Origin: Acetobacter thailandicus
GTDB lineage: Bacteria > Pseudomonadota > Alphaproteobacteria > Acetobacterales > Acetobacteraceae
NCBI RefSeq assembly: GCF_011516655.1
Contig: NZ_WOSV01000003.1
Span: 124,001 to 188,000, forward strand
DNA length: 64,000 nt
Reading direction: 5' to 3'
Under the pieces are notes generated by a model that worked only from the letters and a program-made list of their open reading frames with translations, was not told where the DNA came from and made no database searches. The position numbers and the translations under genes are program-made. Every line of letters begins with the position of its first letter. Positions within the stretch are counted from its first letter, which is position 1. Positions 4,185 through 46,873 of this stretch are shown piece after piece.

Positions 4185-4874
4185 TCAGCCAGCGAAAGCT
4201 GAAACATCAAGGCTGACACCAGGACCCATTGTAGAAGACAGACCTGCCTTCTTAAGGTATGTGCCTTTAGCACCTGACGGACGCGCTTTCTGAACAGCAT
4301 CAACAAATGCACGAACGTTTTCAGCAAGCTTCGCTGCATCAAAAGATGCTTTACCAACGCCAGCATGAACAATACCAGCTTTCTCAGCACGGTATTCAAC
4401 CTGACCAGCTTTAACAGCTTCGATAGCACCTTTAACGTCCATGGTAACCGTACCCAGTTTTGGGTTTGGCATCAGACCACGTGGACCGAGGATTTTACCA
4501 AGACGGCCAACCAGAGCCATCATGTCAGGCGTTGCAATGCAGCGGTCGAAAGCAATTTCGCCTGCCTGCACTTTTTCCATCAGGTCTTCTGCACCGACAA
4601 CGTCAGCACCGGCAGCCTGAGCTTCGTCTGCTTTTGCACCACGGGCAAAAACACCAACGCGCAGCGTTTTACCTGTGCCATTTGGCAGAGAAACAAAACC
4701 ACGGACCATCTGATCAGCATGACGCGGATCAATCCCCAGATTCAGGGAGATCTCAATTGTTTCGTCAAACTTAGCTGTTGCATTGCCTTTTACGAGAGCA
4801 ATAGCTTCATCCAGACCATAAGCCTGATCGCCGTTTACTTTTGCCTGAGCAGCTTTGAGACGCTTATTAGCCAT
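4185..4874 (-). CDS. rplA: 50S ribosomal protein L1
   Basis: L1 forms the mobile stalk near the E site of the 50S subunit and in many bacteria represses its own rplK-rplA mRNA. 229 residues, full length. Conserved segments are seen in order: [20 protein letters not shown], the nucleic-acid-binding [12 protein letters not shown], and KLGPRG-type [15 protein letters not shown]. It follows rplK by only four bases, so the two are co-transcribed and probably translationally linked. The spacer to rplJ after it is long. Confidence 0.97.
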
Positions 4875-4878
4875 AATC

Positions 4879-5310
4879 TCAGCCCTCCACCGTCAGACCA
4901 ATGGAACGAGCAGAACCAGCAAGCATGCTTACTGCACCGTCGATGTCATTAGCGTTCATGTCTTTAAACTTCTGCTCCGCAATTTCACGAAGCTGCGCCA
5001 TCGTCACTTTACCAACATTGGCTGATCTACCAACAGTCTGGCTACCTTTTGAAACCTTTGCAGCTTTCAGCAGGAAGTATGTGTTTGGCGGCGTTTTTGT
5101 AATAAAGCTGAACGTACGGTCTGCATAGGCTGTAATAACAACCGGGATCGGCATACCTGGCTCAAGACCCTGGGTCTTGGCGTTGAACTCTTTACAGAAC
5201 TGCATGATGTTCAGACCGCGCTGACCGAGCGCTGGACCTACTGGCGGTGAAGGGTTAGCCTTACCAGCAGGAATCTGAAGCTTGATGTAGCCAACAACTT
5301 TTTTGGCCAT
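4879..5310 (-). CDS. rplK: 50S ribosomal protein L11
   Basis: L11 binds 23S rRNA in the GTPase-associated centre and is needed for RelA activation. 143 residues, full length. The proline-rich N-terminal motif [20 protein letters not shown] is intact, and the C-terminal domain carries the [21 protein letters not shown] ending. The ATG at 5310 has AAGGAG upstream. It is the first gene of this cluster here. The secE-nusG pair that precedes rplK in most bacteria is absent, and an RND efflux gene ends 128 bases upstream on the same strand. Confidence 0.97.
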
Positions 5311-5340
5311 ATCCGGGACTCCTTATCGTTGAACCCGAAC

Positions 5341-5383
5341 CGTGGTCAGCGGCTCAGCGCATACCGCGCACGAGCCTCCCACG
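5341..5383 (-). promoter_or_regulatory. rplK leader hairpin resembling the L1 site of 23S rRNA
   Basis: Read on the minus strand, the leader folds with CGTGG pairing to CCACG at its ends, a small asymmetric loop (GA against GCTGA), GGCTC pairing to GAGCC, and an apical GCGC/GCGC hairpin. The strand GTGGGAGGCT and its partner GAGCCG match what I recall of 23S helices 76-77, where L1 binds. L1 represses rplK-rplA in Escherichia coli through such a mimic, so autogenous control by L1 is the likely role. The structure was found by eye. Confidence 0.6.
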
Positions 5384-5396
5384 TTCCGTTGAGAGT

Positions 5397-5416
5397 GCCG
5401 CCCTTAGCGGCTTTTT
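5397..5416 (+). terminator. Short terminator-like hairpin pointing rightward
   Basis: GCCGC, loop CCTTA, GCGGC, then TTTTT on the plus strand. The stem is only 5 bp but GC-only and the T run follows directly. No plus-strand gene precedes it, so it would stop antisense transcription coming out of the rplK leader. Read on the minus strand it has A residues before it and no T run after it. It also overlaps a possible -10 element for rplK. Confidence 0.35.
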
Positions 5417-5429
5417 GAAAACAGGTCAA
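5401..5429 (-). promoter_or_regulatory. Possible rplK promoter
   Basis: On the minus strand TTGACC (5424-5429) is followed after 17 bases by TAAGGG (5401-5406). The -35 matches 5 of 6 consensus positions, while the -10 is poor. A promoter is needed somewhere in 5311-5440 unless rplK is read through from the efflux operon, whose last stop codon is at 5439. Confidence 0.3.
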
Positions 5430-5438
5430 GCAAATCTG

Positions 5439-7010
5439 CTATTTTTTTTCACCAGTAAGATCAGCAGAGCGTGCATCTGTCTGCGTGCCAATACCGCCGA
5501 CGGGCGTTGCGTGATGAAGCTTTTCATACTGCAAAACGCCAAATGGCATCAGCTCATGAGAGCCAGGCAGTTCGCTCCGTGACCAGCCCCCGCCCAGCGC
5601 ACGAATTAACTCTACACGCGCATCAAAGGCCCGGGTCTGAACCTGCACAAGTTTAATACGCGCCTCAAGTGCTGCAATCTGCGCGACCACTGCATCCAGA
5701 TAGTTTGTAAGGCCACCTGTATAAAGCGCCATTGTCATCGTCTGCGTGCGCAACGCGGCATTAACCGCGCCACTCTGCTGCTGCTGCTGTACCTTCAGGC
5801 GCGTTGTCCTGGAAAGATTATCCTGCACTTCCTGAAAAGCGCTCAGCACAACGCTTCTGTACAGATCTTCCTGCTGGCGATACTGCGACCAGCTACGCTG
5901 CAGCTCAGCCCGCCGCGCCCCGCCGGTAAACAAAGGTAGCAATGCCTGCACAGCATACTGGTACATAGAGTTAGACAGAGACGCGAGGTCAAACCCGTTA
6001 TCCATAAATCCGGTCATCGCGTTAAATGACACATCAGGATAAAATGCAGCCCTTGAAATACCAATCGCCCTGTTCGCCTGGGCCATGCCCCGCTCAGCTG
6101 AGGCAACATCGGGACGACGCTCCAGCAGTGTTGCAGGCAAGGCAACGGGTGGTTCAACATCAGCAAAAGCAAACTTATTCACCGGCGCAATATGAAACGT
6201 TGCCGGAGCCTTATTCACAAGTACGGCTATAGCATGCTCAACAATCTCACGCTGAGTGAGAATGTCTGTCTCCTGCGCCTGGGTCGTGAAAAGCTGTGTC
6301 TCAGCACGTGACACATCCATACCAGGAGCGATAGAACCAACAAGACGCAGCTTAGTAATCTGCACCGCTGTTTTATAGTAACCTATCGAATCCCTGTACA
6401 CCGCATCCTGCACATCAAGCCCGCGCAACAGAACATAATCACTGGCCAGTTCAGCCTGAAGGCTGAGACGTGCCAGCGCATAATCTGCGGCTATAGCCTG
6501 CGCGCGCTGCTTGGCAACCCGGGTTCTGTTACGGATAGCCGACCAGAAATCAGGCTCCCATGTCGCCACAGCTGAATATTGCTCAGACGACATATAGGTA
6601 GGACCGGTGGCAGTTCCACCACGCCAGAGCCTGTGATGAGAGCTTTTGTTTTTCTGTGCACTCGCACTGCCATTGAGCTGCGGGTACAAATGCGATTTAG
6701 CCTCAGCAACAGCGTCACGCGCCTGCAAAAAAGCCTCAGCCTGCGCCTGCAAGTCAGGGTTAAGGCGCATAGCCTGAGCCTCAAGTTCATTCAGCTGCGG
6801 ATCACCAAACATGACCCACCAGTCAGAACGAAGAGCTGCGTCAGACGGACGGGCATCCGTTAAAAACTTCGCATCCCCCCAGCCTGCCGGCAGCTTCAGA
6901 GGTTCAGGCTTATAACGGGGAGCAAGGTCACAGCCAGACAAAGCCGTTGTCAGTGACAGAGCAGCAAGCCCCCACCGCATCATTTTATATGACCTTCCGC
7001 CCCATTTCAT
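5439..7010 (-). CDS. RND efflux outer-membrane lipoprotein (NodT/OprM family)
   Basis: Outer-membrane channel of a tripartite efflux pump. 523 residues with a signal peptide ending in the lipobox LSGC (Cys27), then the paired outer-membrane-efflux-protein repeats rich in long Ala/Gln helices. The C-terminal motif MALYTGGLTNYLDAVVAQ is typical of NodT-type proteins. The ATG at 7010 overlaps the adaptor stop codon by four bases (ATGA) and has GGAGG upstream. It is the last gene of the permease-adaptor-channel operon. The substrate cannot be told from sequence. Confidence 0.93.
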   Translation of the reverse strand: MKWGGRSYKMMRWGLAALSLTTALSGCDLAPRYKPEPLKLPAGWGDAKFLTDARPSDAALRSDWWVMFGDPQLNELEAQAMRLNPDLQAQAEAFLQARDAVAEAKSHLYPQLNGSASAQKNKSSHHRLWRGGTATGPTYMSSEQYSAVATWEPDFWSAIRNRTRVAKQRAQAIAADYALARLSLQAELASDYVLLRGLDVQDAVYRDSIGYYKTAVQITKLRLVGSIAPGMDVSRAETQLFTTQAQETDILTQREIVEHAIAVLVNKAPATFHIAPVNKFAFADVEPPVALPATLLERRPDVASAERGMAQANRAIGISRAAFYPDVSFNAMTGFMDNGFDLASLSNSMYQYAVQALLPLFTGGARRAELQRSWSQYRQQEDLYRSVVLSAFQEVQDNLSRTTRLKVQQQQQSGAVNAALRTQTMTMALYTGGLTNYLDAVVAQIAALEARIKLVQVQTRAFDARVELIRALGGGWSRSELPGSHELMPFGVLQYEKLHHATPVGGIGTQTDARSADLTGEKK

Positions 7011-37208: not shown

Positions 37209-37244
37209 CGCCTGCAGGCAAAGTATCATTTTACTGCGCAGGCG
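37209..37244. repeat. Inverted repeat between convergent genes
   Basis: CGCCTGC (37209-37215) and GCAGGCG (37238-37244) flank 22 bases at the junction of the FUSC gene (plus) and the lipoprotein gene (minus). There is no T run on either side. It may mark the 3' ends of both transcripts. Confidence 0.3.
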
Positions 37245-38097
37245 GGGCCAGAGGATGCAATAAAACGCCACCTGCGAGCTGCCCCCACTGATCGGCATCT
37301 TTTTGCATCTGACTGCCAGATTGCGCTGCAGCACTCTGAGCCGCACGAGCCCATAAAGAGGCTGCACCTGCATGATCGCCCGAGATGCTGGCCGCACGCG
37401 CTGCCAGAGCCAGAGCTCTCGACATTTCGTTATACGAACCCTCATCTCGTCTCAGGTCAGCAACCTCACGGGCAAGAGACATAGCCTGAGCCGGGTTGGT
37501 TTTAATGAGAGACAGTGCCTCAATCTCTTTTTTATCAGCCAGCACAGAAACAGAAACCGGCTTTTTCATATTATGAAGGCGTGTATATGCACGTTGTAAA
37601 GCGGCATTATCACCACTGTCATACCCTGCCAGCCCCATAATAAGCGCTGCACGACCTGCAAGGTCTTTATCAGCCTCAGCCATAGGCGCCGCAGCATCCT
37701 CTATCGCCTGCGTATAATTTTTCAGCTGATAGTAAGCAGCTGCCTGGACCAGCTTTAACGATACGACTGACGTATCATGGCGAATAAGAAGTGTCTGACT
37801 AACGTCCTGAACTGTCTTTAAAGCATCCTGCGGCTGACCCGCCGCGAGCTGAGATACAGCAAGGTTATAACCAGCCTCGGCCATTGCCGGACCGTCATCA
37901 CGCTTAAGAGCCTGCTGCCCGGCCGTGCGATATTCACTCATCGCGACCTTATAGCGCTTCAGGTCAAAAGCGCTCTCACCCGTGTCCATTGCCTGAGCAT
38001 AAACAGGATCATCAAAAGCTATTGGTGCCGGCTGTGACGTACTACCGCAGGCGGCGAGAGACATCAGCGCGGCGGATGAAAGAATTATTTTTTTCAT
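37231..38097 (-). CDS. Lipoprotein with TPR-like repeats, last gene of the MCE operon
   Basis: 288 residues. The signal peptide ends in the lipobox LAAC (Cys17), followed by GSTSQP. The mature part is helical and repeat-like (AFDLKRYKVAMSEYRTAGQQAL, AGYNLAVSQLAAGQPQDALKT, LKNYTQAIEDAAAP), consistent with TPR or Sel1-type units. MCE systems often include an auxiliary lipoprotein (PqiC or Mla-associated), but those are not TPR proteins, so this may be a different partner. The start overlaps the MCE gene stop by four bases. Confidence 0.75.
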   Translation of the reverse strand: MKKIILSSAALMSLAACGSTSQPAPIAFDDPVYAQAMDTGESAFDLKRYKVAMSEYRTAGQQALKRDDGPAMAEAGYNLAVSQLAAGQPQDALKTVQDVSQTLLIRHDTSVVSLKLVQAAAYYQLKNYTQAIEDAAAPMAEADKDLAGRAALIMGLAGYDSGDNAALQRAYTRLHNMKKPVSVSVLADKKEIEALSLIKTNPAQAMSLAREVADLRRDEGSYNEMSRALALAARAASISGDHAGAASLWARAAQSAAAQSGSQMQKDADQWGQLAGGVLLHPLAPPAQ

Positions 38098-39053
38098 GGC
38101 TGCACCCTGCGTGGTGGCAACCAGCCTTTTTTACTGTTTTTTGGCTGCCCTGAACCGCCAAGTAACCACATGCCACGCAGCTGGTTTGTAAGTTTCTGAA
38201 GGCTGTAAAGAGTTGTCTGAGCCTGGGTCAGCAACGCAGGCAGATCAGCTGTACTGTCCTGCACACTGGCCGCGATTGCCGGCAGATGCGGTGTCGTTTT
38301 TGCCAGGTCACCCGACATCGACTTTACATTTCCCATTGTTGCGTCAGCTTTACTCATGATAGTCGCCATCTGATTTTCTATCGGCTTCAGCTGACTAATG
38401 ACCGTATTGAGTGATACGATTGTTTTCTCTGCATCTTTAATCAGTGCATCATTGGTCAGAAGCTGGCCAACAGAGCCTTTTCCTTCGTGCATAGCCGTCA
38501 TAGTGGCATCAAGCTCAGCCATCATATGACGCGCACTCTCCAGTGTAGGAACAATCTGCGTCTTAATATCATTCAGCGTTGCTGTGATCATATCACCAGG
38601 ATTAGGAGCCGGCGTCGCACTGATAACAGCATAATCCCAGTTCATCGGGGCACCATATCCCCGGTTCAGATCAAGATAAGACGACCCTGCCACAATAAAC
38701 TGCTTGCGAATAACTGCCGTACTGTCACGACGGATAAAGGGCTTAGCCTGCAGGTCAAGGTCAACAATTACATACATATCGCCTGAAGGGTTCAGCTTGA
38801 TGGAACGAATAGTGCCAGCATGCGCCCCCAGTAACTGAACATCACCCCCGACGGTCAGCCCCTCAACACCACCTGCGGGCAGTGTAACGCGTAAGATAGC
38901 CGGTGGCGTCAGCCAGTCACGCAGCACCCCGGCCTCGACGATAACCCCACCGAAGGCTACCAGGCTCAGTATTACAAGGAGCCCCACCCACTCGTCCGTA
39001 TATCGGAGTGAGATTAATGGCTTAACTTTCTGTCGTAAACGAATCTGAAACAT
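38094..39053 (-). CDS. MCE/MlaD family substrate-binding protein
   Basis: 319 residues: one N-terminal membrane helix (about 24-43), a single MCE domain at roughly 54-130 (LTVGGDVQLLGAHAGTIRSIKL, IVAGSSYLDLNRGYG), and a long helical C-terminal part ending in a basic tail (KKGWLPPRRVQP). MlaD-type proteins form hexameric rings that bind phospholipid in the periplasm and contact the MlaE-MlaF transporter. The start overlaps the ATPase-like gene by one base. Confidence 0.87.
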   Translation of the reverse strand: MFQIRLRQKVKPLISLRYTDEWVGLLVILSLVAFGGVIVEAGVLRDWLTPPAILRVTLPAGGVEGLTVGGDVQLLGAHAGTIRSIKLNPSGDMYVIVDLDLQAKPFIRRDSTAVIRKQFIVAGSSYLDLNRGYGAPMNWDYAVISATPAPNPGDMITATLNDIKTQIVPTLESARHMMAELDATMTAMHEGKGSVGQLLTNDALIKDAEKTIVSLNTVISQLKPIENQMATIMSKADATMGNVKSMSGDLAKTTPHLPAIAASVQDSTADLPALLTQAQTTLYSLQKLTNQLRGMWLLGGSGQPKNSKKGWLPPRRVQP

Positions 39054-39754
39054 TAGCCTGCCCGCACCGCCACGAGTCCATCATCCACAAGGCGCCACAT
39101 ACTGGTGGCTAACTGACGATAGCGCCTTTGCACTGTATTATTACGCACCAGCCAGATTACTCCAGCTTCTTTATTTCGGGCTGCAACAACAGCACCAACA
39201 AAAGCCTCTTCAAGATCAGCAGGGCATGCCTCCAGCAGATTTTCGAGAAGAAGAATCTGAGGGTTACCTAAAAACGCCCTGACACAGGATGCCCTGATAA
39301 GGTCTGTCTCAGAAAGCATATCCGGACGCAACACTGGCAAACCTGGCAAACCAAACCAGCTGCTCAGCTGTGTTGCCTCAATAACAACCTCACTCATATC
39401 ACGCGTCGTATGATGTAGCTGCTGCAGGCCTATTCCCATATAAGTGCCGAGAAAATCAGGCCAGCTGGAGCGGTGTGACATCCGGCCAATCCGTCCGCGC
39501 AGAGCATTTTTCTCCCGGTCGCGTAAATCTGCCCAGTCAAGCCCCATAAATTTAACGGCACCATCAACCAGCGGGACAAGCCCTGAGCACATATCTGCAA
39601 AAGCAGTAGCCCGGCTGTTGTCACGCACTTCTATGATAGCACACTCACCAGGCATCAGTTTCATACTGAATGGTACAGGTGGTAACCCACTCTCATCAAA
39701 TGACGGAACAGCTTTATTCAGCTCTAAAACCGGACCTGTTGCACGTGTGTACAT
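39053..39754 (-). CDS. Degenerate ABC ATPase (MlaF-like) lacking all nucleotide-binding motifs
   Basis: 233 residues with the overall layout of an MCE-type ABC ATPase, but every catalytic element is replaced. Walker A is EVRDNSRAT (42-50) instead of GxxGxGKST. The Q-loop region reads GRMSH. The signature is LSETD (147-151) instead of LSGGx. Walker B is ILLLENLL (167-174) without the Asp-Glu pair. The H-loop region is WLVRNNT. The frame is intact and coupled to both neighbours, so it is probably an expressed pseudo-ATPase rather than a decaying gene. A partner ATPase elsewhere could energise the permease. Confidence 0.75.
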   Translation of the reverse strand: MYTRATGPVLELNKAVPSFDESGLPPVPFSMKLMPGECAIIEVRDNSRATAFADMCSGLVPLVDGAVKFMGLDWADLRDREKNALRGRIGRMSHRSSWPDFLGTYMGIGLQQLHHTTRDMSEVVIEATQLSSWFGLPGLPVLRPDMLSETDLIRASCVRAFLGNPQILLLENLLEACPADLEEAFVGAVVAARNKEAGVIWLVRNNTVQRRYRQLATSMWRLVDDGLVAVRAG

Positions 39755-39756
39755 AT

Positions 39757-40659
39757 TCAGAAATCCAGACTAAACAAAACGCTGACAGCCATAACAATCA
39801 ACATACCGCGGGAAAATCCGCGAGGTAAAAGCGTACGAAGGTTATCCTGACTGGTCGCAGTCAGCCCTGTAATACAGGAACCAACCCCTACCACAAACCC
39901 GACAGTAACAAATTTCAGAGGGATCATAATATAATCTGCCGTAGACATGGCAGAAATAACATCATTAAAAAAAGACCATACCGGACTTGTCACAACTCCC
40001 GAAACGCGACTGATAATATACCCGGTCAACAGTGACGCGATTGAAAAGACTATGCCCAGCGTAAAACCGGCAACGGTGAACGCAAGGGTACGAGGCATAA
40101 CAAGCAGCAAAAACGGGTCGATGCCCTGTGCCTGAAATGAGCGGATCTGCCCGCCTGTTGTCAGAAGGCCAAGCTCTGTTACAGACAGCATGCCATTACG
40201 ACCGAGTAGCAAAATACCGACCAGAATAGGCGCTATCTCACGGACAACCACGTTAATCAGGATAGAGCCGGTCATTTTGGCCATACCAGCCACACCAAGC
40301 CAGTATATTGTTTGTGAAACCGCAGCGACGCCGGTAAGTGTTCCTGCAAAGAGCGTTGCAATTAAACCACCACCAATCACGCTGTTCATGGTCGTGCCAA
40401 ATTCATAACGCACTGTACGTCGCCAGGCATTCTGACTGATACTCTCAAACAGAACCCCCCAGCAGGCCCCCAGCATCACCAGAAAAAACCAGACCTGATG
40501 GCGCACAAGCCGCCCAAGCGCCCCTGTTTTTTTTACCAGCCACAAAAAAAGACGCAGCAGGAGGCTCTGCTTCTGATGCATCTGAATGCTATCGCTAAGA
40601 ATAGCATCATTTTCATCACCACCACCCTGTGCGGGCAGTTTGCTCTCCCCCCCGCTCAT
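39757..40659 (-). CDS. MlaE-type permease of an MCE transport system
   Basis: 300 residues. A polar N-terminus of about 45 residues is followed by the MlaE domain with five or six membrane helices: GGGLIATLFAGTLTGVAAVSQ, the conserved REIAPILVGILLLGRNGMLSVTELG (compare REx3P-type motif of MlaE) and VVGVGSCITGLTATS. In Mla systems this subunit moves phospholipid between membranes. The start overlaps the sensor stop by four bases; the ATPase-like gene begins two bases after its stop. Confidence 0.87.
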   Translation of the reverse strand: MSGGESKLPAQGGGDENDAILSDSIQMHQKQSLLLRLFLWLVKKTGALGRLVRHQVWFFLVMLGACWGVLFESISQNAWRRTVRYEFGTTMNSVIGGGLIATLFAGTLTGVAAVSQTIYWLGVAGMAKMTGSILINVVVREIAPILVGILLLGRNGMLSVTELGLLTTGGQIRSFQAQGIDPFLLLVMPRTLAFTVAGFTLGIVFSIASLLTGYIISRVSGVVTSPVWSFFNDVISAMSTADYIMIPLKFVTVGFVVGVGSCITGLTATSQDNLRTLLPRGFSRGMLIVMAVSVLFSLDF

Positions 40660-42992
40660 CGGTGTGCTGCCAGAATGTAAGCGCGGCTCAGACCGAGGTG
40701 AGGCGCAAAGAAGGTTCCTCTGCTACGGAACAGATAACGGTCACGCAACACAGTATAAACACGTTCTGTCACCTGAACGGTACCCGCGCCCGCTGCCCCC
40801 TGCGCCATCAGTTCGGCGACTGAAACTGTCTGCCCCCAGAGGTTAAACACTTTGGGCTCATGTCCGACCTCACGGCCAAAAGCAGCCCCGTAATCAAGAC
40901 CCATCGTAAAGACAGGTTCAAGGTTAGCGCCGGCCAGGGCGGCCATAAATGCCTCACGCATTGACAGGGCTGCATTGGCAATGCGCAGCAGAGCCGTTGG
41001 GTCTTCTGCATCTGTACAGCCTGCCGTACAGATCATACGATGCCCGGCAATTTTTACGGCAAAAAGCTGCTGTTCTGTAGCGATACGCTGCACTTCACAG
41101 GCAAGACGATCTATCAGCTGAAGCAGTTCTACTGTTTCTGTATCATTGTGTAAGACAGGGTCGGTGAAAACAACAACCAGCACGGCAACGTGATGATAGA
41201 CACCTGAAGTCTCAGCCAGAGCAGCCTTTGAATCTGCATTCAGCACGGTGTCAAAATGTGGTTTCAGCCCGGAGACCACCTGTGGCACATCATTATCACC
41301 AGCAATAATTTTGCCAGTGTCAGCATCGTTAAACCCTGTTGTACGGTCACCGTACAAACTGGCAAAGCGCACAGCAACAATAGAAGATATCAGATCAACA
41401 AAATAAAGAAGGTGACCAACAGATGACGCATCTTCGAGAACTATTGCGCCAACAACTTCACCGGCTCCGCGCGCAGGATGAACCACGACCCGCTCAGTGC
41501 CGATCTCTCGCATAACCAGCCTTTCAAACTGTGTTGTGCGTGTATCGCCGGTCGCATCGTCAACGGAGAAATTTTCACCATCTTCGAGGGCCTTAAAAAA
41601 CTCCTCCATATCCTGACGAAACATTTCAAATCCGCCGGAATGTGTATCCTGCTTGCTGTCATAGGAATCTTCACAGATCATCGCTGAGCCATCATGCAGA
41701 AAACGCCAGACACTCACACGACGTGCACCGGTAATGTCAGCCAGCTGCTCAGTCAGGACCAGAGGTTCACTGGGGTCATCAAATAAATGCGGCGTTGATG
41801 ATATCTGCTGAACTGAAGCGGCCTCACGCGCGACCTGTCGTTGCTGCGCGACAAGTAATCGGTCTGTACGATCTGTTCTGCGCACCTGGCGGGCCAGCAA
41901 CCCGGCAAGAATTAAAGAGAAAACAATAATAACAGCAGCAAACTGCAAACTCTGTTTGCTACTCTGACGGGCAAAATTCGAAAAATCACTCTCAGGTGCA
42001 GACAACAGCAGCACCCAGCTTTCTGACGAATTCTTAAGAGGAGACGTCATCGTAACATACGGCTTACCATCAACCGTGAAGCTACGAGGTCCGAACCCCC
42101 GCACACGATAATGATCAAAACCCATAGCCAGAATAGGCGAGGTTTTGGCATTAAGTACCATCTTTGCCGGGTCCCAGTCAGCTTCCTTAGCCAGCTTCAT
42201 CAGATGCCGGCCAGCGATGACCCTCCCCTCCGTATCCAGAATGATAGCATTGCCGGTTTTACCGACCTTCATTCTATCAAGAAAACCGCTTAGCTCATTA
42301 AGTGAAATATTTGTAGCGAAAACAACAGTCTGACTATCAATCCCCTTAAATCTCAAAGCACTGGTCATAATAAACTGACCACTGGACGGAAAGAGATACG
42401 GCTGTGTCCACTGCACTGCATCTTTATGCTCCGTCACTTTATACCAGGGACGCAGACGCGGATCATACTCACCTGCCGGATCACTTGCCTCACCGATCTG
42501 CACACCGTCATTGTTATAATAAATGTGATGAAAAACTTTATGCCCCTGAGTTCCCTCAAGAGTTGTCTGCTCAATATTTTTTCTGTCTTTCGTCCGGGCA
42601 ATCATCGTAAAATTGCCCCTGGCGTCGGCCAGGTAGAATGACTCAATTTGTGGTATATTATGCAGCATTGCGCTGCCATATGAAAAAAAGACACGCTTCT
42701 GTACAGCAACAGGCACATGCTCGATCATCCCGCTGGCAACAATATTACCAGCTGAGGCAGGCATGATATAATCTGAAACTTCCTGAGAAATATAACGCTG
42801 CACGGCATCCAGCAGCTCATGCGTCAGCGTTCGCACCCCTGTTCGCGTGGTGTTATACGAGTGCATGCCAATAACGACAATAGCAAGAACACTGAGCACC
42901 AGAGCAAGGCCTGGCAGCACAAGATGAAATAATATACGCCTGACAGAAAAATCGCTTTGTTTCGTCGGGTCAATTATTTCTTCAGAAGACAC
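40656..42992 (-). CDS. Membrane sensor: dCache, GAF and degenerate class III cyclase domain
   Basis: 778 residues. Membrane helices at about 20-42 and 350-367 enclose a periplasmic dCache domain (RPWYKVTEHKDAVQWTQPY is typical). A GAF-like domain follows at about 400-545, then a nucleotide-cyclase homology domain at about 600-755. In that domain the metal-binding Asp of the first strand is Val (VLVVVFTD), KxxGD is KIAGH, and the transition-state Asn and Arg of xNxxxR are Ser and Glu (LWGQTVSVAELMA). Catalysis is therefore unlikely. It overlaps the MlaE gene by four bases. Confidence 0.78.
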   Translation of the reverse strand: MSSEEIIDPTKQSDFSVRRILFHLVLPGLALVLSVLAIVVIGMHSYNTTRTGVRTLTHELLDAVQRYISQEVSDYIMPASAGNIVASGMIEHVPVAVQKRVFFSYGSAMLHNIPQIESFYLADARGNFTMIARTKDRKNIEQTTLEGTQGHKVFHHIYYNNDGVQIGEASDPAGEYDPRLRPWYKVTEHKDAVQWTQPYLFPSSGQFIMTSALRFKGIDSQTVVFATNISLNELSGFLDRMKVGKTGNAIILDTEGRVIAGRHLMKLAKEADWDPAKMVLNAKTSPILAMGFDHYRVRGFGPRSFTVDGKPYVTMTSPLKNSSESWVLLLSAPESDFSNFARQSSKQSLQFAAVIIVFSLILAGLLARQVRRTDRTDRLLVAQQRQVAREAASVQQISSTPHLFDDPSEPLVLTEQLADITGARRVSVWRFLHDGSAMICEDSYDSKQDTHSGGFEMFRQDMEEFFKALEDGENFSVDDATGDTRTTQFERLVMREIGTERVVVHPARGAGEVVGAIVLEDASSVGHLLYFVDLISSIVAVRFASLYGDRTTGFNDADTGKIIAGDNDVPQVVSGLKPHFDTVLNADSKAALAETSGVYHHVAVLVVVFTDPVLHNDTETVELLQLIDRLACEVQRIATEQQLFAVKIAGHRMICTAGCTDAEDPTALLRIANAALSMREAFMAALAGANLEPVFTMGLDYGAAFGREVGHEPKVFNLWGQTVSVAELMAQGAAGAGTVQVTERVYTVLRDRYLFRSRGTFFAPHLGLSRAYILAAHR

Positions 42993-43013: not shown

Positions 43014-43052
43014 GAATACTCTTTGCTGATGCAAAGAGGGTATTCTTTTTTT
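43014..43052 (+). terminator. Strong stem-loop with T run on the plus strand
   Basis: GAATACTCTTTGC, loop TGAT, GCAAAGAGGGTATTC, then seven T residues on the plus strand. Both flanking genes (ppx and the sensor) are on the minus strand. In their direction the hairpin is followed only by AGATTTTAG. It may act weakly for ppx mRNA and strongly against antisense transcription from the sensor region. Confidence 0.65.
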
Positions 43053-43105: not shown

Positions 43106-44593
43106 TTATGAATCTGCTTCTTCAATGCGCACTGGCAATGACATAGCCTGACCAACCCTGGCCAGTCCACGCCTTACACTATCCCCTTTTACTGCCACAC
43201 ATGACGAACTCAGCCGCAAAACAAGTTCTTTACGCTGGCTGACAAGTTCCGTCCCCTCAAGCAGAGCTGCGGTTCCACCTGCAACAGAATATGCAAGCCG
43301 CAATGCCTGCCCAAGTATTATCGCACGATTCCACTCATCATCTTCGAGCAAAATTCGTGATGTTGATAAATATGCCTCATCAGAAACAGCAGAATATCTG
43401 ACCGCCAGGGCCAGGGCCAGCCATGCACGGGCCTTATGATCAAAGCCGGTACCCTGCAGCCTTAATACACGCCAGTATGTCTGCTCGGCACGATATTCAG
43501 GATGATCATGACTACCAACATCTGAAATACGACAGGCAATACGGCGCAGTCGATTCTGGCGTTTTGTTTCTTTTATAAACAAAGAATCAGTCCACCGCAG
43601 CAGCACGCCTGGCATCTTCATGCTTCGCCCGAGCCGCAGACACATATCCTGCGCCACAACCTCCATAGGGTCCTGCTCAAGGCAGTCAGGGGCGACATTA
43701 AGCATGTACCACCCCTCACGCAGACCATCGACACAAAACACAACCCGCTCAGGCTGTATTTTTCTCAGCAGACGGCGCAGCACAGTTGCGGCAAAAGGTA
43801 TATCTGACAAACGCTTTTTAGGAGATCCTGACAACCGCTCAAGCCCGCGGCGTGGTGCATGCAACAGCCAGCCGGTCATCTCGCGTGCCTCTTCAGCATC
43901 AAGCGTATAGTAATGAATAATATTAAGAGGATACTGCATACGGGCAATATGCAGGCGGGCCAGTGCACGAAATGCCCCGCCGACCAGATAAAGGGTGCTG
44001 CCTTTAAGCTTACTCAGCCATCTTACATTATCAATATCGTCATCGGCCAGCTGCTTGGCTATTTTGATATCACCCTGAGAGCGGTCTCCTAATCTGATTA
44101 CACCAAGTGGTAACGTACTTGCATCATGACGACCTTTACGCGTCAGATTAATCAGCTCCAGAGAGCCCCCTCCGATATCTGCGACAATACCTGAAGCACC
44201 CGGGATGCCACACATCACACCGATGGCAGAATGGTCAGCCTCTTCTTCGCCCGAAAGAATGCGAATGGGCACGCCAGGCATATGGCTACGCAGCGCATCT
44301 ATAAATCCCGGGCCATTTCTTGCATCACGCACGGCAGCCGTTGCCAGAATTTCAAACGGATCAGCATGCATAGCACGGGCAATGGCATGAAAACGCTTCA
44401 GCACGTCCAGCGCAAGCGTTACACCCTCCTCATTGAGCATACCTGTCTGTGTCAGCCCTTTACCAAGGCGAAGCACTGCTTTTTCGTTAAAAATCGGAAC
44501 AGGGTTGCGTGATACCCCTTCGAACACAACGAGACGGACGGAGTTCGACCCGAGATCGACTACAGCCGAACGACGAGGAATATCATTCTGCAT
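43106..44593 (-). CDS. ppx: Exopolyphosphatase (Ppx/GppA family)
   Basis: Releases phosphate from polyphosphate; members may also hydrolyse pppGpp. 495 residues. The actin-like ATPase fold shows the two phosphate loops: AVVDLGSNSVRLVVFE at the N-terminus and GIVADIGGGSLELINL near residue 140. ATAAVRDARNG and RILSGEEEA are also conserved. It starts 15 bases after ppk1, and the pair forms the polyphosphate synthesis/degradation operon. Confidence 0.92.
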   Translation of the reverse strand: MQNDIPRRSAVVDLGSNSVRLVVFEGVSRNPVPIFNEKAVLRLGKGLTQTGMLNEEGVTLALDVLKRFHAIARAMHADPFEILATAAVRDARNGPGFIDALRSHMPGVPIRILSGEEEADHSAIGVMCGIPGASGIVADIGGGSLELINLTRKGRHDASTLPLGVIRLGDRSQGDIKIAKQLADDDIDNVRWLSKLKGSTLYLVGGAFRALARLHIARMQYPLNIIHYYTLDAEEAREMTGWLLHAPRRGLERLSGSPKKRLSDIPFAATVLRRLLRKIQPERVVFCVDGLREGWYMLNVAPDCLEQDPMEVVAQDMCLRLGRSMKMPGVLLRWTDSLFIKETKRQNRLRRIACRISDVGSHDHPEYRAEQTYWRVLRLQGTGFDHKARAWLALALAVRYSAVSDEAYLSTSRILLEDDEWNRAIILGQALRLAYSVAGGTAALLEGTELVSQRKELVLRLSSSCVAVKGDSVRRGLARVGQAMSLPVRIEEADS

Positions 44594-44608
44594 TTCTGCT
44601 CTTTCTCT

Positions 44609-46873
44609 TTATGCGTCAAACATCAGGTTCTGAAAGGAAGACAACGTGGCAGGAGCCCTCACCCCTCCCTCATGAGCTGCCGAACCGCGCCCGGAAAGAG
44701 AAGAGTTTGTCATAAACCATTCATGCGCCGAGAAGGGCTTTCTGCCAGGAGCAACTCTGCGCCATTTACCATTGGGTTCAAGCATCCATGACTGAAGTGT
44801 ATCTTTTATATTAGATACCATAATCTGACCGACAACCTGAGCATGCACCGTCGGGTTTGTGATCGGCACCATACTCTCAACCCGCCAGTCCATGTTACGT
44901 GTCATCCAGTCAGCGGACGAAATATAAACCCGGGCATGACGCGACGGCAGACGATGACCATTACCAAATACAAAAATACGGGAATGCTCAAGAAACCGCC
45001 CGACGATCGATTTCACCCGTATATTGTCTGAAAGACCAGGGACACCAGGGCGCAGACAACACATACCGCGCACAACAGCCGAAATTTTCACCCCTGCCTG
45101 TGATGCACGATACAAATGATCAATCAGCTCAGGGTCGACCAGTGAATTCATTTTCAGCCAGATACTGGCCTGCTTCCCTGCTTTAGCCAGGCTGATTTCA
45201 GCATTAATCTGCTCAACCAGTGTCTTACGGATTGTAATAGGGGAAAATGATATTTCCTCCATTTCAGCCGGCAGCGCGTAACCCGTAACATAGTTAAATA
45301 ACCGTGCAGAATCACGAGCCAGCTCTGGCTTGCAGGTAAAGAAAGACAAGTCTGTATAAATTCTGGCCGTAATGGGATGATAATTCCCCGTGCCAAAATG
45401 TGCATAAGAACGAACCTGGTTCCCTTCCCGCCGCACAACCAGGCTGAGTTTCGCATGTGTTTTCAGGTCAGCAAACCCAAAAACAACCTGCACACCGGCA
45501 GCCTCAAGCGCCCGGGAGAGGCGAATATTCGCCTCCTCATCAAAACGGGCCCGTAGCTCAACCATTGCTGTCACTGACTTGCCTGCTTCAGCCGCTTCTA
45601 TCAGAGCCTTAACAATAGGAGAGTCACGGGACGTACGGTACAGAGTTTGCTTAATTGCAATGACATTAGGGTCAAGTGCAGCCTGCCGCAGAAACTGCAC
45701 CACCACATCGAAGCTTTCAAACGGGTGGTGTACCAGCAGATCTTTTGCACGAATAGCAGCGAAACAATCGCCGTTAAAATCAAGAATACGCTCCGGGAAG
45801 CGTGGCGTATAAGGCGGGAAAAGCAGATCAGGCCTGTCATCAACTATCATCTGCTTCAGGTCAGAAACACCTATGATACCCGGGTGCACAATAATCTCTT
45901 CATCCGGCAGATCGAGGTCCGCCGCAATAGCAGATGCAAGCTCTCTGGGAACGCACGCTTCCATGTCGAGATGGATAACCACACCACGGCGGCGGCGTTT
46001 TAATGCACTTTCATATGAGCGCACCAGATCTTCGGCTTCATCTTCAAACTCGACATCCGTGTCACGCACCACACGTAACATGCCGCTTTCGCCAATAACC
46101 AGACCGGGAAACAGCTTGTCGATGCACAGCGCTATCATATCTTCAAGGCGAATGAAGCGCACTTTACGGCTACCATTACCATCCCTGACAGGCAGACGAA
46201 TAAAACGCTCAACCTGCGCAGGCAGAAGAATAAGCGCATTCATCACGAAATCGTCAGTTTCACAATTCAGCAGACGCAGGGCCAGAGCAAGACCCATATT
46301 GGGGATGAATGGTAACGGATGCGCTGAATCAACAACCAGCGGTGTCAGCACCGGAAAAATCCGGTCCATAAAACAGGAAACAAGCCAGGCACGATCGGCG
46401 TCATCAAGCTCTGGTATATCCTGCAATATAACATCAGACTCAGCGAGCAACGCTCTGAGCTCAAGCCATATACGCTGCTGTTCATGCAGCAGCACAACAG
46501 AGCGTTCACGCACAGCATTTAACTGCTCTGCGGGGGTCAGACCATCGGGAGAGAACGCCGCAAGCCCTTCTCTTACCTGACCAACCAGACCAGCAACACG
46601 AACAGAATAAAATTCATCGAGGTTACTGGCGCTGATAGAAAGAAAGCGAAGCCGCTCAAGCAAGGGGTTACGGGGGTTATCTGCCTCCTCAACAACGCGC
46701 TGATTAAAATCAAGCCATGAGAGCTCACGATTAATGAAACGCTCAGGAGAATCAGACGCGATCTGAGGCTTTACGGGTTTTTTTTTAGAAGGCGCAGTGG
46801 CACCAGGAGGGCGTTTTGCACGGCGTCTTATAGCAACACCGGTTTTATTGTCCTGCCTGCTCCGCACCACCAC
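44609..46873 (-). CDS. ppk1: Polyphosphate kinase 1
   Basis: Makes polyphosphate from ATP reversibly. 754 residues with a basic Lys/Arg/Pro-rich N-terminal extension of about 40 residues. [17 protein letters not shown] opens the N domain. The catalytic His is in [15 protein letters not shown] (His473) and the second active-site His in [15 protein letters not shown] (His630). [15 protein letters not shown] is intact. The ATG at 46873 has AAGGAGA upstream. A perfect terminator stem separates it from the S46 peptidase gene. Confidence 0.95.

Follow-up and report, generated by a model that had tools for sequence, protein, structure and literature searches.

The window analysed here, a 64,000-nucleotide stretch of the genome of Acetobacter thailandicus (contig NZ_WOSV01000003.1), carries a unit of five genes of the MCE lipid-transport type, in which a membrane sensor is encoded ahead of an MlaE-family permease, an ATPase-like protein, an MlaD-type MCE protein and a TPR-like lipoprotein. 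The five-gene composition is near certain, as is the loss of catalytic residues from the ATPase-like protein (hereafter the pseudo-ATPase) and from the cyclase domain of the sensor. The unit is read as an ATP-independent lipid conduit in which the pseudo-ATPase would act as a scaffold and the sensor would gate the path in response to a ligand, a reading held with about even confidence. The genes form one tight minus-strand run at 42992-37231 (43.0-37.2 kb; open reading frame positions in the window), in which neighbours overlap by 4, 1 and 4 bases at the first, third and fourth joins and stand 2 bases apart at the second, exactly where the original prediction, made from the sequence, had placed five adjoining genes with joins of 4, 2, 1 and 4 bases. 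Lengths are in amino acids (aa).

40656..42992, minus strand: membrane sensor, 778 aa (from Pfam, a cyclase profile, a structure model and alignments)
39757..40659, minus strand: MlaE-family permease, 300 aa (from Pfam and an alignment)
39053..39754, minus strand: pseudo-ATPase, 233 aa, with an ATP-binding cassette (ABC) nucleotide-binding fold (from a profile, an AlphaFold model and an alignment)
38094..39053, minus strand: MCE (MlaD-type) protein, 319 aa (from Pfam and an alignment)
37231..38097, minus strand: TPR-like lipoprotein, 288 aa (from weak TPR matches and a lipobox)

The ATPase-like protein has no Pfam match at an E value of 1. A profile built from 35 relatives hits 265 distinct PDB sequences at E ≤ 0.001, the best 60 of the 265 being ABC proteins, and the AlphaFold model is an ABC nucleotide-binding domain (predicted local distance difference test score, pLDDT, 93.3). 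A Foldseek search with this model gave a best E value of 7.8e-15, with MlaF (6xbd_I) at rank 20 and a TMq of 0.78; the PDB scores of DppD, MacB, BceA and LolD are higher than that of MlaF, and an origin from MlaF is not separable by them from an origin from another ABC protein. The catalytic motifs were compared in 60 aligned pseudo-ATPases, the window protein and those of 59 further loci from 39 genera, with the broken locus L088 left out. The Walker A lysine is present in none of the 60, nor is the signature glycine pair (first glycine 0/60, second 4/60); the H-loop histidine is kept in two, and the Walker B aspartate in one, with glutamate instead in 57. In the window protein Walker A, the signature and the H-loop are gone and the Walker B aspartate has become glutamate. 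Each ATP site of an ABC dimer is built from Walker A and Walker B of one subunit and the signature of the other. Since Walker A and the signature are both lost and the sites are composite, both would be spoiled, in a homodimer as in a heterodimer with a normal MlaF. The earlier description of the ATPase as degenerate therefore stands, with the ABC fold kept. Other residues have become newly fixed (W74, R86, G90 and D151 among those invariant in a 35-row alignment), and none of the 76 family matches has an internal stop. The pseudo-ATPase, at 233 aa, is shorter than the two MlaF proteins of the same genome (258 and 260 aa), and by length the MlaF-type C-terminal extension seems to be absent. 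Papers are cited by PubMed Central (PMC) identifier, and statements resting on them are those of the available parts of each text. In Escherichia coli this extension of MlaF is required for assembly (PMC7367683).

The permease is matched by PF02405 at 109.7 bits (cut-off 22.5) and the MCE protein by PF02470 (MlaD) at 44.4 bits (cut-off 25.1), in agreement with what the original prediction had named them. The membrane core of the unit permeases (R-E-x-x-P and G-R-x-G) is conserved. The expected docking motif is changed. A 2007 genomic survey of MCE operons, drawn on here and below, is presumably the work of Casali and Riley. In that survey the EExDA loop of YrbE/MlaE proteins was proposed as the contact with the ATPase (PMC1810536), and in the MlaFEDB structure the coupling helix of MlaE contacts the ATPase (PMC7790496). 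The window permease has GQIRS in place of an EExDA-type motif, the two other MlaE proteins of the genome having DQIDA and EEIDA, and three further MlaE proteins from outside the unit (L157, L160 and L161) QEIDA, REVDA and QEVDA. The aspartate of the motif is thus kept in all five non-unit proteins compared, in contrast to one of the 60 unit permeases, where arginine or lysine stands instead in 51. The coupling helix of the unit permease reads GGxxRxL. Position 1 is glycine in 54/60, a position that varies in other MlaE proteins too, position 2 is glutamine in 35/60, and the alanine is kept in 22/60. The weight of the argument lies on the aspartate, because the first glutamate is missing from other MlaE proteins as well. 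From these substitutions, the contact between MlaE and the ATPase seems to have been re-made along with its partner.

The MCE protein has a single MCE domain (residues 56-132), conserved across the unit homologues, followed by a long C-terminal part. The best NCBIfam scores for this protein, Mtu_fam_mce (44.5 bits) and MlaD (39.2 bits), are both far below cut-off, and none of the five window proteins reaches the cut-off of any curated NCBIfam family (MlaE, MlaD, ABC subunits and others). The lipoprotein has weak TPR matches in Pfam, none above cut-off, and no PF03886 (PqiC-like) match; its lipobox Cys17 is invariant in the 19 lipoproteins aligned. Pfam found no match to MlaB (STAS) or MlaC in the five unit genes, as had been stated for both.

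The sensor was originally described as a Cache/GAF protein standing in front of the transport genes. Both domains are present (dCache_1 41.1 bits, below its cut-off of 45; GAF 29.6 bits), and the description was incomplete in missing a C-terminal pseudo-cyclase (Guanylate_cyc, 51.8 bits). The protein starts with an N-terminal helix, followed by a periplasmic dCache_1 domain (about 60-335), a membrane and coiled helix (about 335-399), a GAF domain (about 411-540) and the cyclase domain (about 598-777). The structure model has a pLDDT of 80.7, a low-confidence linker between GAF and cyclase domain, and a predicted template modelling score (pTM) of 0.43, at which the relative placing of the domains is unsure. 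A class III adenylate/guanylate cyclase domain takes up the last 180 residues, with a profile E value of 1e-32 to solved adenylate cyclases, and alignment to these shows the WG motif and the GxDxG region to be kept. In class III cyclases two metal-binding aspartates, a transition-state asparagine and an arginine have their roles in the active site. Among 58 aligned sensors, one of which (L058) has a gap at these positions, the second metal aspartate, the asparagine and the arginine are each found in three, spread over nine different rows. The column of the first metal aspartate holds aspartate in 36/58, its equivalence being uncertain because HMMER aligns the profile two residues differently. 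No sensor among the 58 has more than two of the four residues.

In dCache domains an aspartate of the D173 type holds the amino group of amino-acid ligands. Arginine R126 of PctA binds the ligand carboxylates in the dCache_1AA domain, and D173 is the aspartate that closes the dCache motif, the text naming PctD at that point (PMC10104139). In an alignment to PctA, covering part of the motif, the sensors carry RxWY with the carboxylate-binding arginine in 46/58 and the tryptophan in 56/58. The D173 equivalent is aspartate in 19 (L117 among them), asparagine in 37 (including the window, Asn228) and serine in 2. The asparagine-type sensors form one clade in a tree of the permease, pseudo-ATPase and MCE protein (58 rows, midpoint root, topology without support values, three loci left out), with the two serine rows inside it and the aspartate rows outside, which by parsimony gives one change between aspartate and asparagine. 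In the sensor, a residue that contacts the ligand appears to have undergone a single change, at the root of the acetic acid bacteria. A ligand switch, with amine-free acids replacing amino acids, would fit the lifestyle of these bacteria, and is offered as a guess.

Searched with the window protein at 1e-15, the pseudo-ATPase is found in 76 of 249 Acetobacteraceae genomes and 35 of 102 genera, with one match each. The 15 named loci found with the window permease all belong to Acetobacter, A. malorum and A. orientalis among them. In a sample of the order, 153 of 299 genomes match the pseudo-ATPase profile at E ≤ 4.5e-48; at 1e-20 the number is 169, of which 16 with best E values of 1e-22 to 1e-20 were set aside as ordinary ABC proteins. 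A class sample of 385 genomes contained two strong matches outside the family (G740 and G425), the other strong ones being family members, and in a phylum sample of 398 genomes G425 again matched strongly, as the only genome from outside. Both genomes have the complete five-gene unit and are placed among Acetobacteraceae sequences in the tree, and their congeners in the same sample (G663; G552, G649 and G725) have ordinary MlaE scores only. Together this suggests, from tree position and scores, that the unit was transferred from Acetobacteraceae to other families. No relative of the pseudo-ATPase was found at 1e-5 among 72,556 plasmid records.

Strict synteny, defined as five genes on one strand, in order, with gaps of less than 300 bases between aligned parts, is found in 53 of 60 fetched regions. 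Two others (L053 and L060) have the genes in order at wider spacings of the aligned parts, and in L066 a contig edge lies inside the MCE gene. The pseudo-ATPase match adjoins MlaE in all 60 regions, in remnant form in L088. In L060 a stretch of about 1 kb in which no gene was recognised (4643-5634) separates sensor and MlaE, and the lipoprotein frame is 616 aa long. Ratios of nonsynonymous to synonymous substitution (dN/dS) were computed by the Nei-Gojobori method with a purpose-written script, for four genera of four genomes each (six pairs per gene). They are 0.046-0.277 for the pseudo-ATPase, with one pair saturated, 0.024-0.261 for part of MlaE, and 0.017-0.218 for the MCE protein, with dS near saturation in genus g85. 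The pseudo-ATPase, the permease and the MCE protein are under purifying selection. The original prediction had named two cases that would speak against it, an order found in this strain only and operon genes under relaxed selection; the spread and synteny counts dispose of the former, and for the three genes covered dN/dS does not exceed 0.277.

The ancestry of the unit was approached through its permease. The Mpc system (mpcEFDA) of Brucella and other Hyphomicrobiales (PMC12436622) has a permease with a fused N-terminal domain. In the 385 class genomes the profile of the unit permeases scores six members at 305-399 bits, and the other matches listed at no more than 101 bits. Most of the best non-member matches listed fall in open frames about 380-450 aa long, a length that suits permeases carrying a fused N-terminal domain such as that of Mpc. 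This favours descent from an Mpc-like system, by loss of the N-terminal domain and of ATP use and by gain of the sensor. No intermediate with an intact ATPase was found, the MlaE scores in the 385 genomes being bimodal and those of the pseudo-ATPase profile likewise.

The A. thailandicus genome has three MlaE genes, MCE domains at five places (seven hits), two MlaC genes (on contigs C1 and C8, outside the unit) and one MlaA gene. Its two MlaF proteins have intact Walker A, Walker B, signature and H-loop motifs. One locus consists of mlaF-mlaE, with the ATPase motifs intact, and lies on contig C4, where there is no MCE hit. The other, on contig C9 (L090), encodes a 420-aa permease, an intact ATPase, an MCE protein and a PF03886 lipoprotein (100.7 bits) in the Mpc order. 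Contig C9 also has a 573-aa frame with three MCE domains, which is presumably PqiB-like. With these intact ATPases, normal systems exist besides the window unit, and the genome is not one devoid of a functional MCE ATPase, a third case that had been named as adverse. No STAS match was found in the N-terminus of the window permease at E 10, a search whose positive comparison, the C9 permease, is itself weak (STAS_2 E 0.023, 15.3 bits, cut-off 29.2).

In the proposed mechanism a path for lipids would run from the inner membrane, through the MlaE permease and the helical stalk of an MCE hexamer, towards the TPR lipoprotein at the outer membrane. The pseudo-ATPase, its ABC fold kept, would dock on the re-made coupling helix of MlaE and neither bind nor hydrolyse ATP. 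The sensor would take the regulatory place that the STAS protein MlaB holds in Mla; binding of a periplasmic ligand would shift the pair of pseudo-ATPase and MlaE between closed and open states, and lipids would flow down their gradient without ATP. ATP independence is likely, given the composite-site argument and the changed docking motif. Gating of the MlaE pair by the sensor is plausible, given the place of the sensor gene in the operon, the close joins of the genes and the likeness in role to MlaB, a protein that binds MlaF and stabilises it (PMC7367683). Assembly and copy numbers of the complex are modelled on MlaFEDB and Mpc, the cargo would by family be phospholipid, and a direction of transport is likewise assumed. 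A wider proposal is possible and is held more tentatively: a ligand-gated, ATP-free lipid bridge across the diderm envelope, of Mpc-like ABC origin, in which a clade-wide pseudo-ATPase locks or unlocks the MlaE channel, the periplasmic small-molecule sensor with its pseudo-cyclase opens it, and a single switch of ligand, an amine-free acid replacing an amino acid, took place in the acetic acid bacteria.

Several observations weigh against an ATP-free, sensor-gated conduit. The catalytic glutamate position is still glutamate in 11/60 pseudo-ATPases, and position 2 of the docking motif in 12/60 permeases. Even with no P-loop of its own, the protein could be moved by some other motor, or transport could be coupled to the proton gradient, and how sensor, pseudo-ATPase and MlaE touch one another is a guess. 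In genus g95, two genomes (L083 and L120) carry the four core genes and no sensor, which was found nowhere else in either genome at 1e-10; at least there the sensor is accessory, and gating by it is not universal. The unit is also dispensable in places. In G126, a genome of 2.0 Mb, broken remnants are left (L088, 4489-8912); a congener (G046, L078) has the unit intact, and the loss is probably recent. In G136 (L058, 7218-10373) the order is kept and the sensor and MlaE frames are each split in two, which is either real decay or a sequencing error. The MlaE gene of G142 (L019, 2984-2193) has an in-frame stop inside the coupling helix, which three other same-genus copies lack in the stretch compared, so that this copy may be inactive or misread.

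These three genomes speak for ordinary decay of the operon, an explanation given almost no weight. The same losses are found in 60 of 60 proteins from 39 genera, the fixed residues W74, R86 and G90 of the 35-row alignment and the Walker B glutamate (57/60) are new, dN/dS is low, and all 76 pseudo-ATPases are free of internal stops. Decay of a single operon was rejected on the purifying selection, the uniform motif losses and the conserved order. An unlikely but more serious alternative is that the permease is still driven by ATP, a catalytic MlaF from the other mlaE loci replacing the pseudo-ATPase or pairing with it, in the manner of the unlinked Mkl. The two intact MlaF proteins of the genome would allow this, and unlinked MCE ATPases are known in mycobacteria (PMC1810536). 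Against it stand the place of the pseudo-ATPase next to MlaE in 60/60 regions, the purifying selection on its gene, a heterodimer that would have no complete ATP site, and the docking aspartate, kept in 1/60 with a basic residue in its place in 51/60.

That the unit serves sensing or signalling rather than transport is rather improbable. The MCE protein and lipoprotein would then detect a lipid or the state of the envelope, and the pseudo-enzymes would relay this to partners. Two pseudo-enzyme domains, as found in scaffolds, and the architecture of the sensor are in keeping with such a role, but Pfam finds no known output domain or regulator encoded in the unit, conservation is seen in the membrane core of MlaE and in the MCE domain, and in the two g95 genomes it is the sensor that is missing and the four transport parts that are kept, the opposite of what a signalling role predicts. 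Less probable again is a static tether between the two membranes without transport. A dead motor and a layout from inner membrane to lipoprotein would suit a tether, which would however need neither the conserved permease, with dN/dS values about as low as the MCE protein's, nor a ligand sensor. The proposed ATP-independent, sensor-gated conduit bears on the mechanism, direction and energy source of lipid movement by MCE systems, those of the MlaE type being taken as ATP-driven. A natural MlaE system with a dead motor in every member examined raises two questions, whether lipids can pass through MlaE and an MCE protein unaided by ATP and whether that flow is gated from outside, and it provides two pseudo-enzymes with a likely physical target.

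Upstream of the unit, 113 bases off and in the same direction, lie ppx and ppk, and downstream is a convergent FUSC gene. The ppk-ppx pair (43106-46873) has matches in three same-genus regions (L034-L036) and in no other among the matches listed. A hairpin at 43019-43038 between ppx and the sensor gene, T-rich on its plus side, is perhaps a terminator dividing ppk-ppx from the operon. A promoter scan of the window found 8 sites against 6.3 expected, which is chance level. Terminator-like sites number 14 against 6.8 expected (standard deviation 2.3), mostly within genes, and nothing is concluded from them.

The original prediction knew of no described system with this composition, and no paper on the five-gene unit was found among the literature matches listed, in which subscription journals are thinly covered, so that absence from print is not implied. 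With Mla the unit shares the MlaE permease, the MCE protein and the ABC fold of the cytoplasmic subunit; it differs in having no catalytic MlaF, MlaB or MlaC and a changed docking motif, and its MCE protein is longer than E. coli MlaD (319 versus 183 aa; PMC12436622). The mycobacterial Mce systems (YrbE, Mce and Mkl) are similar in their MlaE-type permease and long MCE protein, but Walker A, Walker B and the signature are all kept in Mkl, and two yrbE and six mce genes make up the operons (PMC1810536). In the same 2007 survey Gram-negative operons with DUF140 (MlaE) and mce invariably include an ATPase gene, and the Walker motifs and signature were present in the ATPases checked (PMC1810536). 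Solved class III adenylate cyclases (4p2f and 7yz9) resemble the C-terminal domain of the sensor in sequence and fold class, whereas in the sensor the second metal aspartate, the asparagine and the arginine are mostly gone. Both structures are presumably of the Cya type of Mycobacterium intracellulare. Pqi and Let (LetAB) resemble the unit as MCE systems without an ATPase; their inner-membrane part is PqiA or LetA and not MlaE, and neither is known to have a pseudo-ATPase or a sensor. The components of Pqi are PqiABC (PMC10897342).

Among the systems compared, Mpc is the closest described one; the main text of its description contains no words beginning with Acetobacter or Rhodospirillales (PMC12436622). 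It shares with the unit the order of permease, ATPase, long MCE protein and lipoprotein, and MpcD (331 aa) is close in length to the window MCE protein (319 aa). Mpc also ends in a lipoprotein without MlaC, so that the lack of MlaC, presented earlier as unusual, is not so in itself (PMC12436622). In Mpc the ATPase is a catalytic-type homologue of MlaF, the permease carries a STAS domain and the lipoprotein is PqiC-like (PMC12436622); the window unit differs in having a pseudo-ATPase, a TPR-like lipoprotein and, in front, a sensor of dCache, GAF and pseudo-cyclase domains.

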